Below, one piece after another: positions 14,550-19,221 of a DNA stretch of 64,000 bases (the first letter of the stretch is position 1; each line of letters begins with the position of its first letter). The DNA comes from Paenisporosarcina cavernae. GTDB taxonomy: Bacteria; Bacillota; Bacilli; Bacillales_A; Planococcaceae. The stretch is taken from assembly GCF_003595195.1 (NCBI RefSeq), contig NZ_CP032418.1, positions 322,501-386,500 of the forward strand, written 5' to 3'. The position numbers and the translations under genes were made by a program. A model generated the notes under the pieces. That model saw nothing but the letters and a program-made list of their open reading frames with translations. It searched no databases and was not told the DNA's origin.

Positions 14550-15161
14550 ATGGAAAACTGGATTACGGACTTTATGAGTCAGTTTGGATACTTCGGTGTC
14601 TTTTTACTCATTATGTTGGAAAACGTTTTCCCTCCAATCCCGTCAGAAGTTATTTTGACGTTTGGTGGGTTTATGACAACGTATTCGGATATGACGCCTT
14701 TTGGTGTGATTGTTGCATCAACCGCGGGTTCAGTTGCGGGAGCCGTTATTTTATTTGGGATTGGGAAATTGTTAAACGTCGAGCGATTAGAGCGAATTAT
14801 TGAGAAATATGGTCGAGTGTTACGTTTAACGAAGGAAGATGTACATAAAGCGGACGCTTGGTTTGACAGGTATGGTATTTGGACTGTCTTATTTTGTCGT
14901 TTAATTCCATTGATTCGTAGTTTAATTTCGATTCCAGCCGGTATGTCGGATATGCGATTTGGGTTATTTTTATTATTCACCACAATTGGAACCGTCGTTT
15001 GGAATACAATATTAGTATTAGTCGGAGCGGCAGTTGGAGACAACTGGGAATCAATTGTTGGATATATGGATATTTATTCTTCCATCGTGTATGTGATTCT
15101 AGCAGTCATCGGGATTGCGGCAATTGTGTGGTACATGCGTTTTAGAAAAAGTAGAGCATAA
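14550..15161 (+). CDS. DedA-family membrane protein
   Basis: 203-aa DedA/SNARE-associated family protein with about five helices. Hallmarks are ENVFPPIPSEVIL near residue 25 and FCRLIPLIRSLISIPAG in the centre with the conserved Arg residues. Some DedA members (UptA/YngC of B. subtilis) return undecaprenyl phosphate across the membrane. The gene ends 9 nt before uppP, which makes a lipid-carrier role attractive here, though other DedA proteins move other lipids. Confidence 0.88.
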   Translation: MENWITDFMSQFGYFGVFLLIMLENVFPPIPSEVILTFGGFMTTYSDMTPFGVIVASTAGSVAGAVILFGIGKLLNVERLERIIEKYGRVLRLTKEDVHKADAWFDRYGIWTVLFCRLIPLIRSLISIPAGMSDMRFGLFLLFTTIGTVVWNTILVLVGAAVGDNWESIVGYMDIYSSIVYVILAVIGIAAIVWYMRFRKSRA

Positions 15162-15170
15162 GGAGTACGT

Positions 15171-15998
15171 ATGGAAATTATTGAGATTTTAAAAGCGATT
15201 ATTTTAGGCTTTGTAGAAGGTATGACAGAGTTTGCGCCAGTATCTTCTACAGGTCATATGATTATAGTGGATGATTTGTGGTTAAAAACGACGGAGTTTT
15301 TAGATCAGTATTCTGCAAATACATTCAAAGTGGTCATTCAACTCGGTTCTATTTTGGCGGTAGTCGTTGTTTTTTGGAAACGATTATTTAGTTTAGTAGG
15401 ATTGTATAAAATGAAAGATGTTGCACCAGGAGATCAGTTAAAACTGACACATGTCATCGTTGGATTATTGCCTGCAGGAATTTTAGGCGTGCTGTTTGAA
15501 GACTTCATTGATGAGAATTTGTTTTCTGCAGAGACAGTCGTAATCGGACTAGTTATTGGGGCATTTTTAATGATTGCAGCGGATTATTTCGGACCGAAAG
15601 TACCGCCTGTTCAAACACTTGATCAAATAACGTATCGTCAAGCGTTTATGGTGGGTCTGATTCAATGTTTCTCGTTGTGGCCAGGCTTTTCACGTTCAGG
15701 AGCGACGATTTCCGGCGGTGTTTTACTCGGGTTAAATCATCGAACTGCAGCTGACTTTACATTTATTATGGCCGTTCCAATTATGATGGGAGCGAGCTTT
15801 ATTTCCTTGTTAAAAAACTGGGAGTACATCAATGCGGATGATATCGGATTTTATATTGCAGGATTCCTCAGTGCATTTGTTTTTGCGTTAATTTCCATTC
15901 GTTTCTTCTTAAAACTTATTGGAAGAGTTAAACTGACCCCGTTTGCGGTATATCGTATCATCCTCGCAATCGTAGTCGCAGCGATTCTTTATCTTTAA
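15171..15998 (+). CDS. uppP: Undecaprenyl-diphosphatase UppP/BacA
   Basis: 275-aa membrane phosphatase that converts undecaprenyl diphosphate to the monophosphate carrier and gives bacitracin tolerance. The family motifs are present: EGMTEFAPVSSTGH near residue 16 and PGFSRSGATISGG in the C-terminal half. About eight helices are predicted. It lies in an operon with the DedA gene and is followed by a terminator. Confidence 0.95.
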   Translation: MEIIEILKAIILGFVEGMTEFAPVSSTGHMIIVDDLWLKTTEFLDQYSANTFKVVIQLGSILAVVVVFWKRLFSLVGLYKMKDVAPGDQLKLTHVIVGLLPAGILGVLFEDFIDENLFSAETVVIGLVIGAFLMIAADYFGPKVPPVQTLDQITYRQAFMVGLIQCFSLWPGFSRSGATISGGVLLGLNHRTAADFTFIMAVPIMMGASFISLLKNWEYINADDIGFYIAGFLSAFVFALISIRFFLKLIGRVKLTPFAVYRIILAIVVAAILYL

Positions 15999-16009
15999 GT
16001 TTTTTAAGG

Positions 16010-16045
16010 TAGCACTTCTCAAAGTGGAGAGGTGCTATTTTAATT
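16010..16045 (+). terminator. Rho-independent terminator after uppP
   Basis: Stem TAGCACTTCTC / GAGAGGTGCTA followed by TTTTAATTT. Confidence 0.85.
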
Positions 16046-16068
16046 TGTAACGGCAAAAAATAGTTCTT

Positions 16069-16094
16069 CAAAACTAGTACTTACGTACCGATAT
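16069..16094 (+). promoter_or_regulatory. Candidate SigD-type promoter of the GGDEF gene
   Basis: CAAA-N14-ACCGATAT resembles the motility sigma factor consensus TAAA-N15-GCCGATAT (7 of 8 in the -10). It ends 46 nt before the ATG. A sigma-A type TATACT at 16099 without a good -35 is the alternative. Confidence 0.4.
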
Positions 16095-16140
16095 AGATTA
16101 TACTAGAATTAATATTCTGATAATTTGAAGGGGTGATGGT

Positions 16141-17709
16141 ATGCAATTAAGCAACTTTCTTATTTATTTTTTTGCATATATCTTGCCCGCTTCGTTAATG
16201 TTAGCCTTTTCGTTCATCATTATTGCGAGAAATAGAGCAAGTGTCGAACATTGGCTAGGATTTTTACTTATGAACGCCTATACAGTTCTGTATATGGGAG
16301 AGTTCATTCGGCATATTTTACCCTCTGCGAGTAGTGGATACATTCAAACGTATATTACGACTCCTTGTGGCATCTTTATTCTATCTCTCGGTCTTCATTT
16401 CTTTGCGAAAATGTCGAATTTTAATGAAGTATTGAAACGTCCACTGTATCCATTCGCATTTTATGTGCCCGCAGTATTAGTCGTGCTTTCGGCGTTTTTG
16501 TCGAATCCTCACGAGAACGTGGATCAATATATTCGCAACGGCCCGTGGATTTACATTTTTTACGATCGTACGTACTTCATTACCATGATTGCAAGTGCGT
16601 TACTTGTCATCCCATATTATTTCATGCTTCGCTCGGGAAAAAACCGTGTACACTCTTTACGAGATGAGCGGTTAATGGTGTTTATGTCTCGCATCGTGAT
16701 TGCGGTGTTTTTCCTCACGTTAGCGTTAGGATTACCATTTTTAGATGGCATACTTCCTCCAAAACCGTTTTATTATGTCGGAATCCTTTTTGGTATCGGT
16801 ATTATGTACAGTATGTACCGATTTGATTTTTTGACGAATAACAATGATCAATATGAAACTATTTTCGAGCTTACCCCTTCTATAGCGCTTATTTTTAATG
16901 GTGACTGGCGGGTAGATGAATGGAATGTAGCAGCGGAAAGTTACCAATTATATCAAGACATGAGTTTTGATACGATTCTGGAAATGTACGGTGCGACGAG
17001 ATATAAATCGAAACTTGTAACGATGTTTGAATCAGGGGAATTAATACGTGATTTCCCAGTTGATGTTCAAATGCCTGCAACTGAAGAGCTCCGATATTTT
17101 CTCGTGGATGGGAAACGATTTTTGAAAAATCGTAAATTTGCCTATTTCTTTTTGGTGCGAGATGTCACGGAAGAGAGAGAAGCGAGAGAAAAATTAAAGT
17201 TTATCGCCTTTCATGATCAGCTAACAGGAGTTGCCAACCGTGGTGCTTTTGTGAAGTTGTCAGAGACATTCATTCACGATAATCCGACGAGGCCAGCGTA
17301 TTTTGGATTGCTCGATTTAGATTTTTTTAAAGCGATTAATGATTTCTATGGACACCAAATGGGCGATGAAGTGTTAAAGAAAACAGCAAAACTTTTGGAG
17401 GAGTTTGTTGGAAGTTTTGGAAGAGTAGGACGATTAGGTGGGGATGAGTTTGTGTTTGCCATTTTGGATAATGAAACATTTCCAACGATTGCATCAATTG
17501 AAAATAGATTAATCGCTTACTTTCAAGTAAACGCGCTCGTAGTAGAAGATGATGTTATTCCAATTGTTCCGAGTATCGGTATTAGTCGTTACCCGGATGA
17601 AGGTAGAACATATGATGACTTATATAGCCTGGCCGATCTACGGATGTACAAAGTGAAAAACGAGCGAAAAATTCGTCGCCAAAACCGACAGGAGAACGCG
17701 ACCCGATAA
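16141..17709 (+). CDS. Membrane diguanylate cyclase (7TM-PAS-GGDEF)
   Basis: 522-aa protein that makes cyclic di-GMP. Residues 1-225 form about seven helices like the histidine-kinase N-terminal 7TM region. A PAS-like segment (about 240-335) precedes the GGDEF domain, with the intact motif GGDEF at residues 433-437 and the substrate motif LDLDFFKAIND. No RxxD inhibitory site is seen five residues before GGDEF. AAGGGGTGATGG precedes the ATG. The sensed signal is unknown. Confidence 0.9.
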   Translation: MQLSNFLIYFFAYILPASLMLAFSFIIIARNRASVEHWLGFLLMNAYTVLYMGEFIRHILPSASSGYIQTYITTPCGIFILSLGLHFFAKMSNFNEVLKRPLYPFAFYVPAVLVVLSAFLSNPHENVDQYIRNGPWIYIFYDRTYFITMIASALLVIPYYFMLRSGKNRVHSLRDERLMVFMSRIVIAVFFLTLALGLPFLDGILPPKPFYYVGILFGIGIMYSMYRFDFLTNNNDQYETIFELTPSIALIFNGDWRVDEWNVAAESYQLYQDMSFDTILEMYGATRYKSKLVTMFESGELIRDFPVDVQMPATEELRYFLVDGKRFLKNRKFAYFFLVRDVTEEREAREKLKFIAFHDQLTGVANRGAFVKLSETFIHDNPTRPAYFGLLDLDFFKAINDFYGHQMGDEVLKKTAKLLEEFVGSFGRVGRLGGDEFVFAILDNETFPTIASIENRLIAYFQVNALVVEDDVIPIVPSIGISRYPDEGRTYDDLYSLADLRMYKVKNERKIRRQNRQENATR

Positions 17710-17780: not shown

Positions 17781-17857
17781 AGGTAGAAAATAGTTTCGTG
17801 ACATTCCATAGGAGAAAAGATACACTAAACTATATTTACACAAAGGAGAGAGTTCAT

Positions 17858-17914
17858 ATGAAAAGCTTTCAGAAACAGATAAACACGTATACGGTAGGTT
17901 GTTTTAATCGATAA
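17858..17914 (+). CDS. Leader peptide ORF (18 codons) upstream of MFS exporter
   Basis: An 18-codon ORF, MKSFQKQINTYTVGCFNR, with an excellent ribosome site (AAAGGAGAGAG, 7 nt before ATG). It ends 101 nt before the exporter. Its codons 14-16 lie in GGTTGTTTTA, which can pair with TAAAACAAC at 17944-17952. Position and structure fit leader peptides that control antibiotic-resistance genes by ribosome stalling. That it is translated is inferred. Confidence 0.6.
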   Translation: MKSFQKQINTYTVGCFNR

Positions 17915-17930
17915 AAGAAAACAGTATTTC

Positions 17931-18007
17931 GGTTGTTAAATTGTAAAACAACTAACTGATTTTTTCTCTAAAACACCTCCGTCAAAAAAAAAGAGAAACC
18001 ACGGAGG
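17931..18007 (+). promoter_or_regulatory. Leader RNA with ribosome-site-masking hairpin
   Basis: CCTCCGT at 17976-17982 pairs perfectly with ACGGAGG at 18001-18007, which contains the ribosome site of the exporter. A second stem GGTTGTT (17931-17937) / AACAACT precedes it. TTTCTCT before CCTCCGT can pair with AGAGAAA inside the loop, giving an alternative or pseudoknot fold. The leader segment ACGGTAGG can also pair with CCTCCGT through a 1-nt bulge. Confidence 0.6.
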
Positions 18008-18015
18008 GAATCACA

Positions 18016-19221
18016 TTGACGATTCAACGTTATTATTATGCTTTAACAAGTAGTAGAGCACTACTTATTCAAATGGTTTTTACGTTAAATGCCATTTACT
18101 ATGTATCCAATGCGGGTTTAAATCCATTAGAGCTAGTGCTTATTGGAACGATTATGGAAGTCTCCGTTTTATTGTTTGAAATGCCGACAGGATTGTTTGC
18201 AGATCATTTTGGACGAAAAAAATCACTCGTACTCGGGACACTTATTTTAGGAGTAGCACATGTTGTAGAAGGAAGTACTCCAGAGTTTTGGGCAATTGCT
18301 TTAGCATCTGCGTTGTGGGGTTTTGGTTGGACGTTTATAAGTGGCGCGGAGCAAGCGTGGATTGCGGATGAACTAGATGGAAAAGACTTGGAGAGAACTT
18401 TTTTACGAGGTGCTCAATTTACTTCGTTTGCCCGTTTCCTTGGGATTGGAGTGAGTGTAGGTGTTGCGACTTTGTACTCCCCTCAAGTATCGATTATCGT
18501 AGCGGGAGCCCTTTTAATCGTCGTAGCAGGTATCGCGTTTTGGAAAGTTCCAGAAACAAAATTTGTTCCTGTCGATCGTGAAGCAGGAGACAACGGTTTT
18601 CTTCACATGGTCAAAACCTTGAAAACGGCTGCCAATCAAGTAAAAGGAAACACCGTACTAGCAACCATCGCGTTTGTCACGCTTTTTATCGGACTTGCAA
18701 GTGAAGGATTTGACCGATTGTACGGAGCGCACTTTATTGTGGACTACAACCTTGAGGAAGAAAAAGCGGTTGTCTGGTTTGGCGTTTTGTATGCGGTCGC
18801 ATTTTTACTCAATATGCTTCTGCTGAAAATCGTGGAAGTAAGAGTAAAGCATCGTTTAGGAACTGCTTTAATGCTCATTAATCTACTCATTGTCTTTACG
18901 ATGATTGGATTTGCATGGGTAGGAAATGTTTGGATCGCGGTAGCTTTATACTGGATGACTAGTGCACTTCGAAACGTCAATTATCCACTCATTAGTGTAC
19001 TGACAAATGAACGTTTAGAGTCGAAGGGACGAGCGACTGCCCTGTCGATGATTGGTCAATTGGATGCGTTTGGGCAAATTGCCGGAGGACCACTTGTTGG
19101 ATTACTTGCACTCTACACATCGATTGCGGGAGGAATTACCTCTTCTGCGATTCTCATTTTACCGGTTGTGTATTTTTTATGGAAAATGAATCATGCGATC
19201 AAAACGAGCAAAACGATTTGA
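18016..19221 (+). CDS. MFS transporter, probable drug exporter
   Basis: 401-aa major facilitator with about 12 helices. The loop 2-3 motif is GLFADHFGRKKSLVLG, the standard MFS motif A. The start is TTG with GGAGGG 7-8 nt upstream. No substrate can be read from sequence. The leader peptide and masked ribosome site in front of it are typical of antibiotic-inducible genes, so I infer drug efflux. It is monocistronic and ends before a convergent gene. Confidence 0.85.
   Translation: MTIQRYYYALTSSRALLIQMVFTLNAIYYVSNAGLNPLELVLIGTIMEVSVLLFEMPTGLFADHFGRKKSLVLGTLILGVAHVVEGSTPEFWAIALASALWGFGWTFISGAEQAWIADELDGKDLERTFLRGAQFTSFARFLGIGVSVGVATLYSPQVSIIVAGALLIVVAGIAFWKVPETKFVPVDREAGDNGFLHMVKTLKTAANQVKGNTVLATIAFVTLFIGLASEGFDRLYGAHFIVDYNLEEEKAVVWFGVLYAVAFLLNMLLLKIVEVRVKHRLGTALMLINLLIVFTMIGFAWVGNVWIAVALYWMTSALRNVNYPLISVLTNERLESKGRATALSMIGQLDAFGQIAGGPLVGLLALYTSIAGGITSSAILILPVVYFLWKMNHAIKTSKTI

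Follow-up and report, generated by a model that had tools for sequence, protein, structure and literature searches.

A candidate translation-attenuation switch that would read ribosome position on a short leader ORF upstream of a TetA(P)/Tet(40)-like MFS exporter gene

Leader, masking strand and exporter gene

The window, i.e. the whole stretch of 64,000 nucleotides of Paenisporosarcina cavernae DNA that was analysed, carries a gene for an MFS exporter that is preceded by a short leader ORF with its own ribosome site and by a strand (segment 2) that can pair either with late codons of the leader (segment 1) or with the ribosome site of the exporter (segment 3) (Table 1). Upstream of the leader, positions 14550-17709 hold genes for an undecaprenyl-diphosphate phosphatase, a GGDEF diguanylate cyclase and a membrane protein which we take to be DedA-like. 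The 18-codon leader ORF with its strong ribosome site is present as stated in an earlier note on this DNA, and the sequence also bears out the exact complementarity, pointed out there, between CCTCCGT (17976-17982, inside segment 2) and the ACGGAGG that holds the ribosome site of the exporter. When the stretch from the leader to the ribosome site was shuffled 5000 times with dinucleotides preserved, CCTCCGT arose in 10 cases, and among 14 gene-like starts with a ribosome site, as found in the window by a crude start finder, only that of the exporter had a perfect 7-nt upstream complement. The consensus scan that yielded the probable promoter gave four promoter-like matches in the region, compared to 3.6 in shuffles.

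Table 1 Features of the leader region and the exporter gene in the window, and leaders of the methyltransferase loci.
Feature	Position	Strand	Description and basis
Probable promoter, GTGACA - 17 nt - TACACT	17798..17826	+	consensus scan, 9/12
Ribosome site of the leader ORF, AAAGGAG	17842..17848	+	sequence
Leader ORF, MKSFQKQINTYTVGCFNR	17858..17914	+	18 codons, ATG at 17858, TAA at 17912-17914; read from the sequence
Segment 1, leader codons 12-16, ACGG(U)AGGU(U)GUUUUA	17891..17906	+	imitation of the exporter ribosome site; predicted fold
Segment 1', window-specific, GGTTGTT	17931..17937	+	alternative partner of 17944-17958; predicted fold
Segment 1b, window-specific, TAAAACAACTAACTG	17944..17958	+	rivals segment 2 for segment 1; folds
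Segment 2, masking strand, UAAAACACCUCCGU	17969..17982	+	pairs with segment 1 or segment 3; folds
Segment 3, exporter ribosome site, ACGGAGG	18001..18007	+	exact complement of 17976-17982
MFS exporter, TetA(P)/Tet(40)-like	18016..19221	+	401 aa, TTG start; Pfam/NCBIfam profiles
Methyltransferase leaders (L126, L147, L149-L164, L175, L178-L181)	about 100-130 nt before the gene		16-18 codons

Folding of the leader region resulted in a z-score of -2.12, with equally good folds in 2 of 200 shuffles. The masking stem is present in the minimum-energy fold, in which the U-rich stretch is instead engaged by the AAAGGAG site of the leader itself. A competing pairing of TTTCTCT (17963-17969) with AGAGAAA (17992-17998) had also been proposed in the earlier note; both motifs are there, but the pairing was dropped since it has by eye no counterpart in the ortholog alignment and the U-rich stretch pairs elsewhere. 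The proposed partner of leader codons 14-16 (17944-17952) does match these codons and is included in segment 1b, but the key pairing, that of codons 12-16 with the masking strand, had been missed. Segment 1' has no counterpart in the ortholog alignment. An intrinsic terminator in the leader was rejected, as a scan of the + strand of the window leader revealed no terminator-like site. A known curated RNA family or riboswitch was rejected as well, since Rfam gave no family at the window leader at the gathering score (one tRNA was found elsewhere in the window) and nothing at the leaders of nine ortholog loci at E values up to 1.

The exporter matches Pfam MFS_1 with an E value of 1e-21. Its best NCBIfam models are TetA(P) with 249.9 bits and Tet(40) with 211.4 bits, both under the curated cut-offs of 750 and 800 bits, respectively, and the next model scores 29.2 bits. 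Identity to the plasmid-borne proteins is 35.6% for TetA(P) and 34.5% for Tet(40). Among 15 aligned proteins, TetA(P) has eleven charged residues that do not vary, including E52, E59 and E89, which are presumably glutamates that matter for tetracycline transport. Because of these profile scores, identities and invariant charged residues, tetracycline is the likely substrate of the exporter.

Conservation of the leader and of the competing pairings

An ortholog of the exporter with at least 66% identity was found in seven of the nine genomes of the genus, the window's own included. In 200 genomes of the family, 41 matched the exporter at an E value of 1e-60, 30 of them with at least 54% identity, and the same 30 orthologs were recovered in a search of 261 genomes of the order, of which 60 matched at 1e-55. 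The 398 genomes of the class added six orthologs of 55-61% identity, all in a second family, and a scan of contigs gave only three distant MAG homologs. A putative leader ORF with its own ribosome site (GGGAGAG, AAGGAG or AGGAGTG in the same place of the alignment) was recognized before all 36 orthologs of at least 54% identity in the two families (29 of the 30 first-family loci, the 30th, G038, by eye, and six of six in the second family). The search upstream of orthologous exporters was the check set beforehand by the earlier note, whose reading of the locus as a leader-ORF-controlled switch that masks the ribosome site of the exporter agrees with the result: the leader ORF and the masking pairing are conserved, and leader plus masking strand occur in 36 of 36 orthologs. 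By eye, the three-segment layout was seen neither upstream of 20 homologs of 34-37% identity nor upstream of 19 homologs of 36-41% identity.

A few loci deserve separate mention. At L033/L123 (G038), an insertion of about 190 nt lies between the intact leader MKSKTVTLNIKSEGMLD and the masking hairpin, a natural uncoupling; since it parts the leader from the hairpin, this locus was excluded from the tabulations of 34 or 35 leaders and from the fold calculations. Upstream of MFS homologs of 36-38% identity from another family (L089-L096), there is a similar ORF that has a strong ribosome site and starts with MLKTLFRASKYT or a close variant; by eye, it is different in type from the three-segment leaders. 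A stop codon interrupts one ortholog (G113), and two second-family orthologs contain an in-frame TGA. With such in-frame stops in the exporter copies L073, L074 and L048, the leader of which is kept, the exporter gene may be decaying in some species.

The 35 leaders tabulated have 17 codons in 31 cases, 16 in two, 19 in one and 18 in the window. Their peptides vary widely between groups (e.g. MKRTTLASAYKLEGMLG, MTVFSVQPQPHSEVLY, MQQYDQKLNHQLEGSCA and MRIQTFKTFILPEEVRS). At the nucleotide level, all 35 leaders have a G as the last base of codon 12 and as the first base of codon 14, 33 have GAG as codon 13, and codons 12-14 read (C/T)GGAGG in 33, with TGGGGG in L008 and CGGTAGG in the window. 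Despite these fixed nucleotides, the residues vary at codon 12 (S/L/T/P) and at codon 14 (G/D/V/E). A conserved arrest peptide was therefore dropped, given the differences between groups and the variation of residues 12 and 14 over invariant nucleotides. The distance from the start codon to segment 1 is identical in all 35 leaders. From the leader stop, the masking strand is about 7-18 nt away in the orthologs, as compared to 61 nt in the window (distances to segment 2 were taken by eye for L003, L008, L036 and L046). The gap between the leader stop and the start of the exporter is 36-68 nt in the tabulated set of 34 orthologs and 101 nt in the window.

In order to quantify covariation, we used alignment A2 of 31 orthologs, in which the window (L002), L005, L046 and L077 are left out; alignment A1 leaves out the window and L005, the leader of which is identical to that of L004. 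RNAalifold picked the pairing of segments 1 and 2 (1:2) on A2 unprompted. This pairing holds in 93.2% of cells of the 31 sequences, with 22 double-changed cells and a covariation of 0.318, compared to a shuffle mean of 0.216 and to 0.030-0.084 for slid versions; 0 of 500 shuffles were as high on paired cells, double-changed cells and covariation. Two of the five measures were no better than shuffles, namely how many pairs showed a double change (four; 192 of 500 shuffles as high) and how many further pair types there were (12; 223 of 500). Since the core pairs are nearly invariant, they say little on covariation. The masking pairing (2:3) holds in 89.1% of cells of the same sequences, with a weak covariation of 0.155 (3 of 500 shuffles as high; 0.146 if slid by one). 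Median duplex energies in 34 orthologs were -18.9 kcal/mol for 1:2 and -13.2 kcal/mol for 2:3.

A covariance model, R1, was built from the 31 aligned orthologs. On 261 genomes, 39 had a match at an E value of 0.1, and the 28 below 1e-3, almost all of them training sequences, were all at the exporter. Among ortholog loci outside the training set, near copies aside, R1 found G038 and missed G083 (L046) and G000, the genome of the window, whose leader scored 11.9 bits (E 1.1), with two chance places scoring as high or higher. On inspection, 13 of 15 weaker places looked like ordinary gene starts or chance, and L125 was dropped on reading. On the 398 genomes of the class, 11 matched at an E value of 0.01, four in the window's family, six in the second family and one in another; ten adjoin the exporter, in the two families, and the eleventh, L133 (G433), was dropped as chance. 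As this draw of 398 genomes was probably the same as in the ortholog search, the distant exporter homologs of that search would have given no R1 match.

Predicted effect of ribosome position and rival explanations

For calculation of the cost of opening the exporter ribosome site, the RNA was kept unpaired over an assumed ribosome footprint that reaches from 14 nt upstream of the first P-site base to 16 nt downstream of it. The mean cost in 34 orthologs was 3.0, 2.8, 2.1, 2.0, 1.9, 1.9 and 2.8 kcal/mol for P-site codons 1 to 7, respectively, jumped to 7.3 kcal/mol at codon 8 and ranged between 6.7 and 8.7 kcal/mol over codons 8-18; without any ribosome, it was intermediate (3.9 kcal/mol). With a ribosome at the AUG, opening was cheaper by more than 1 kcal/mol than with one at codon 13 in 32 of the 34 orthologs and than with one at the stop codon in 27, and the reverse was found in none for either comparison. 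In six orthologs (L003-L005, L008, L036 and L046), opening with the ribosome at the leader stop cost just 2.0-3.8 kcal/mol, and therefore a terminal stall could open them, too. With the ribosome at codon 5, the observed opening was within the lowest 10% of synonymous shuffles (60 per leader) in 35 of 35 leaders, the window being at exactly 10%, with a mean z of -2.7; these are not 35 independent tests, because the sequences are related and some are near-identical. The leader nucleotides thus look selected for opening of the site beyond the peptide. Synonymous-codon shuffles and covariation together indicate that the conserved feature is the 1:2 pairing and not the leader peptide. When the RNA stopped short of segment 3 and a ribosome was placed at codon 3, segment 2 was predicted to pair with the leader with a probability of at least 0.8 in 31 of 34 orthologs, and of 0.99 in the window.

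In our view, the locus is probably a translation-attenuation switch that responds to how far ribosomes advance along the short leader ORF. Three mRNA segments would compete in it, i.e. the late leader codons, the masking strand and the exporter ribosome site. On a freely translated leader, ribosomes over codon 8 to the stop would cover segment 1, so that segment 2 would pair with segment 3 and the exporter would be off. A drug that holds ribosomes at the leader start or the first codons would leave segment 1 free to capture segment 2 during transcription, upon which segment 3 would be exposed and the exporter made. Such early stalling requires a constant distance from the start to segment 1, which is matched by all leaders tabulated. 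Calculation and comparison show a conserved layout, covariation of 1:2, nucleotide constraint beyond the peptide and opening that depends on ribosome position; the direction of the switch in cells, its inducer (a compound of the tetracycline class or another one that stalls ribosomes at start codons) and the substrate of the exporter are what we infer. The exporter is probably induced by a ribosome-acting compound, and the switch suits a start-codon-stalling drug such as tetracycline better than an arrest of the erm/cat type. In Escherichia coli, tetracycline is reported to stall ribosomes at start codons across the whole genome, the 3' edges of the ribosomes lying at +16 to +18 (PMC12121999). 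Tetracycline would fit, since such a stall leaves segment 1, which begins at nt +34, uncovered.

The leader of the window is the most diverged copy, with GTA as codon 13. Aligned to 11 orthologs, its promoter-to-ATG stretch gave z values of 1.4 to 8.2 (L007 8.2, L008 6.4) and its leader ORF z values of -1.6 to 4.6, above 2 in four of the 11 (L042 4.6, L037 4.0), and because of these values it is probably homologous to the ortholog leaders though diverged. For the nascent RNA of the window, placing a ribosome at codon 1, 3 or 5 led to a predicted pairing of 17891-17906 with UAAAACACCUCCGU in a helix of 14 pairs with two bulged U's, at a probability of 0.93-0.99 until nt 18002 that fell close to 0 by nt 18010 upon emergence of the exporter site; a ribosome at codon 13 gave a probability of 0 throughout. 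Of 500 synonymous shuffles, 10 equalled this helix, as did 2 of 500 shuffles of the codon order, and its duplex energy alone was reached by 29 of 500 synonymous ones. In the full-length RNA, the masked form is favoured (-33.0 vs -27.1) with the help of the window-specific strand 17944-17958, and equilibrium folding prefers masking in every ribosome state; the equilibrium opening cost is 5.0-5.4 kcal/mol for codons 1-6 and 6.4-8.8 kcal/mol for later codons. Since 1:2 forms in the nascent RNA while the masked form wins at full length, the switch of the window, if active, is predicted to be kinetic, i.e. to act during RNA synthesis only.

Alternatively, the switch could have decayed in this genome, leaving the exporter constitutively weak as the masking stem persists and the 1:2 arm is damaged. 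The deviating codon 13, the failure of R1 to detect this leader and the equilibrium masking in all ribosome states speak for such decay, which we nevertheless consider unlikely in view of the twice-bulged 1:2 helix in the nascent RNA, its rarity in shuffles and the reading frames of leader and exporter, both of which are open. Less probable still is a classical arrest as in ermC, cat or fexA, in which a drug-bound ribosome stalls via its nascent peptide and directly opens the masking stem, a kind of control to which the earlier note had pointed. The general layout of leader plus masking stem is shared with these systems, and the six orthologs that open cheaply with a ribosome at the stop would allow it. 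The AUG stall, however, opens the site more easily than one at codon 13, stalls at codons 8-18 on average deepen the masking, the masking strand lies well past the leader stop, by far the most so in the window, and segment 1 is kept as nucleotides while the peptide is unconserved between groups.

Segment 1 could instead be a real Shine-Dalgarno-like site that pauses the terminating ribosome via the 16S rRNA, its match to the exporter site being a by-product. Such a pause would be in line with the presence of CGGAGG or TGGAGG in 33 of the 35 leaders of exporters; where the leader has 17 codons, the motif lies about 8 nt ahead of the last one. We regard a Shine-Dalgarno-like role as very unlikely, given that covariation of the exporter leaders reaches beyond the core and that segment 1 of the methyltransferase leaders described below, which is GGUGUGGAAGA-like and does not make a strong ribosome site, nevertheless pairs with segment 2 (98.6% of cells, structure-fitted alignment). 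Coupling is another known mode of control, tet(L) being regulated by translational coupling/reinitiation. If ribosomes finishing the leader reinitiated at the exporter, the hairpin would only set the efficiency; the short leader and its nearness to the exporter in the 34 orthologs tabulated would be compatible with this. We give it hardly any credence, as the gap in the window is 101 nt and both the conservation of 1:2 and the synonymous constraint would be left unexplained.

Methyltransferase leaders and comparison with known systems

A weak R1 match, L126 (E 0.0096), precedes a gene for a SAM methyltransferase of 249 residues that matches Pfam Methyltransf_25, all its NCBIfam matches being below cut-off. 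The gene is present in 28 of 32 genomes of the genus of L126, and a leader of 17-18 codons (e.g. MIVSSIFPSNKFKVWKN) was recognized in 18 of its 30 loci there; 11 of the 12 others are loci of at most 60% identity and one is of 86%. In these leaders, the final codons (GGUGUGGAAGA or similar) pair with a strand downstream of the stop codon, which can alternatively pair with CGGAGG of the methyltransferase ribosome site. Opening costs, averaged without the 12 loci lacking a recognized leader, were 1.3-2.5 kcal/mol for codons 1-9, 4.1 kcal/mol for codon 10 and 6.2-7.8 kcal/mol from codon 11 on, and 16 of 18 leaders were in the lowest 10% of synonymous shuffles (40 each), with a mean z of -2.8. RNAalifold again picked 1:2 on the 18 leaders, with no double change. 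The peptides read MxVSS... in most cases and end in V(W/R/L)xx, and the start region of the leader itself forms a conserved hairpin.

A second model, R2, made from the methyltransferase leaders, matched five of the 398 class genomes, four of them in other families, and each match, by eye, directly precedes the same methyltransferase. The device was thereby seen before the methyltransferase at 22 loci in five families. In a structure-fitted alignment of these loci, 98.1% of cells are paired in the two helices of the model and 98.6% in 1:2, with a count of three double changes that 5 of 500 shuffles equalled or exceeded. R1 found 11 of 11 methyltransferase loci tried, of the 22, in register with E values of 8e-5 to 0.1, along with one chance match.

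We tentatively put forward, as a possibility that falls somewhat short of being probable, a general sensor that would work independently of the leader peptide and respond to ribosomes stalled during initiation or on the first codons. It would be built on leaders of about 17 codons, the last of which encode an unmasking strand, and be used in the class before at least two unrelated genes, one for a tetracycline-type exporter and one for a small SAM methyltransferase. Leaders of resistance genes are usually explained by drug-specific arrest peptides, whereas the exporter leader seems to need none. If this is true, ribosome position alone would decide, and an imitation ribosome site within the leader would read it; ordinary parts would make a broad sensor of tetracycline or initiation stalls, and the free variation of the peptide would be explained. 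The layout is a searchable signature for more drug-responsive genes and has already led to the methyltransferase, which, together with other genes behind such leaders, would be an undiscovered resistance or translation-stress gene if the general sensor is true.

In the open literature, which does not extend to subscription journals, we found no description of the exporter leader. TetA(P) and Tet(40) are the nearest named exporters. Their loci differ from that of the window: by eye, two Paraclostridium plasmids have no three-segment switch next to tetA(P), and none was seen in the one tet(40) locus read. Regulation of tet(P) is by transcription attenuation. On the two plasmids (L069 and L071), an 8-codon ORF (MRKEVVFN) with a ribosome site lies about 480-500 nt upstream of tetA(P) and is followed, by eye, by hairpin-like stretches with T-runs.

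Among leaders of other genes, toiL-topAI of E. coli is alike in having a short upstream ORF and translation-level masking of the downstream ribosome site, and tetracycline and retapamulin are reported to stall ribosomes at the upstream start codon (PMC12121999). There, however, the proposal is that the masking of the topAI site is done by the toiL sequence itself and disrupted by the stalled ribosome (PMC12121999), whereas the exporter leader would carry the unmasking segment, which is freed since the ribosome has not reached segment 1; the target gene is unrelated to the exporter as well. The ermC and ermB leaders share the leader ORF, the masked ribosome site and alternative mRNA pairings (PMC8274638, PMC6685928), and the arrest on ermBL is described as amino-acid-dependent and located at codon 10 (PMC8274638); by comparison, the peptide of the exporter leader is unconserved, and ribosomes at late codons are predicted to keep the gene off. 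In vmlR of Bacillus subtilis, start-codon-stalling drugs likewise act through a tiny upstream ORF, and a hairpin sequestering the ribosome site is disrupted in the induced form (PMC9226507). This system differs in using transcription antitermination and a 3-codon ORF on which the stalled ribosome prevents an anti-antiterminator (PMC9226507). The upstream ORF of a DUF1127 gene in Sinorhizobium meliloti also reads leader-ORF translation under tetracycline, but through transcription attenuation that needs C-rich codons at the ORF start, and the abstract does not describe a ribosome-site imitation (PMC12218461). We rate the exporter leader as resembling the toiL-topAI, vmlR and erm leaders in kind, i.e. 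as a variant of translation attenuation.
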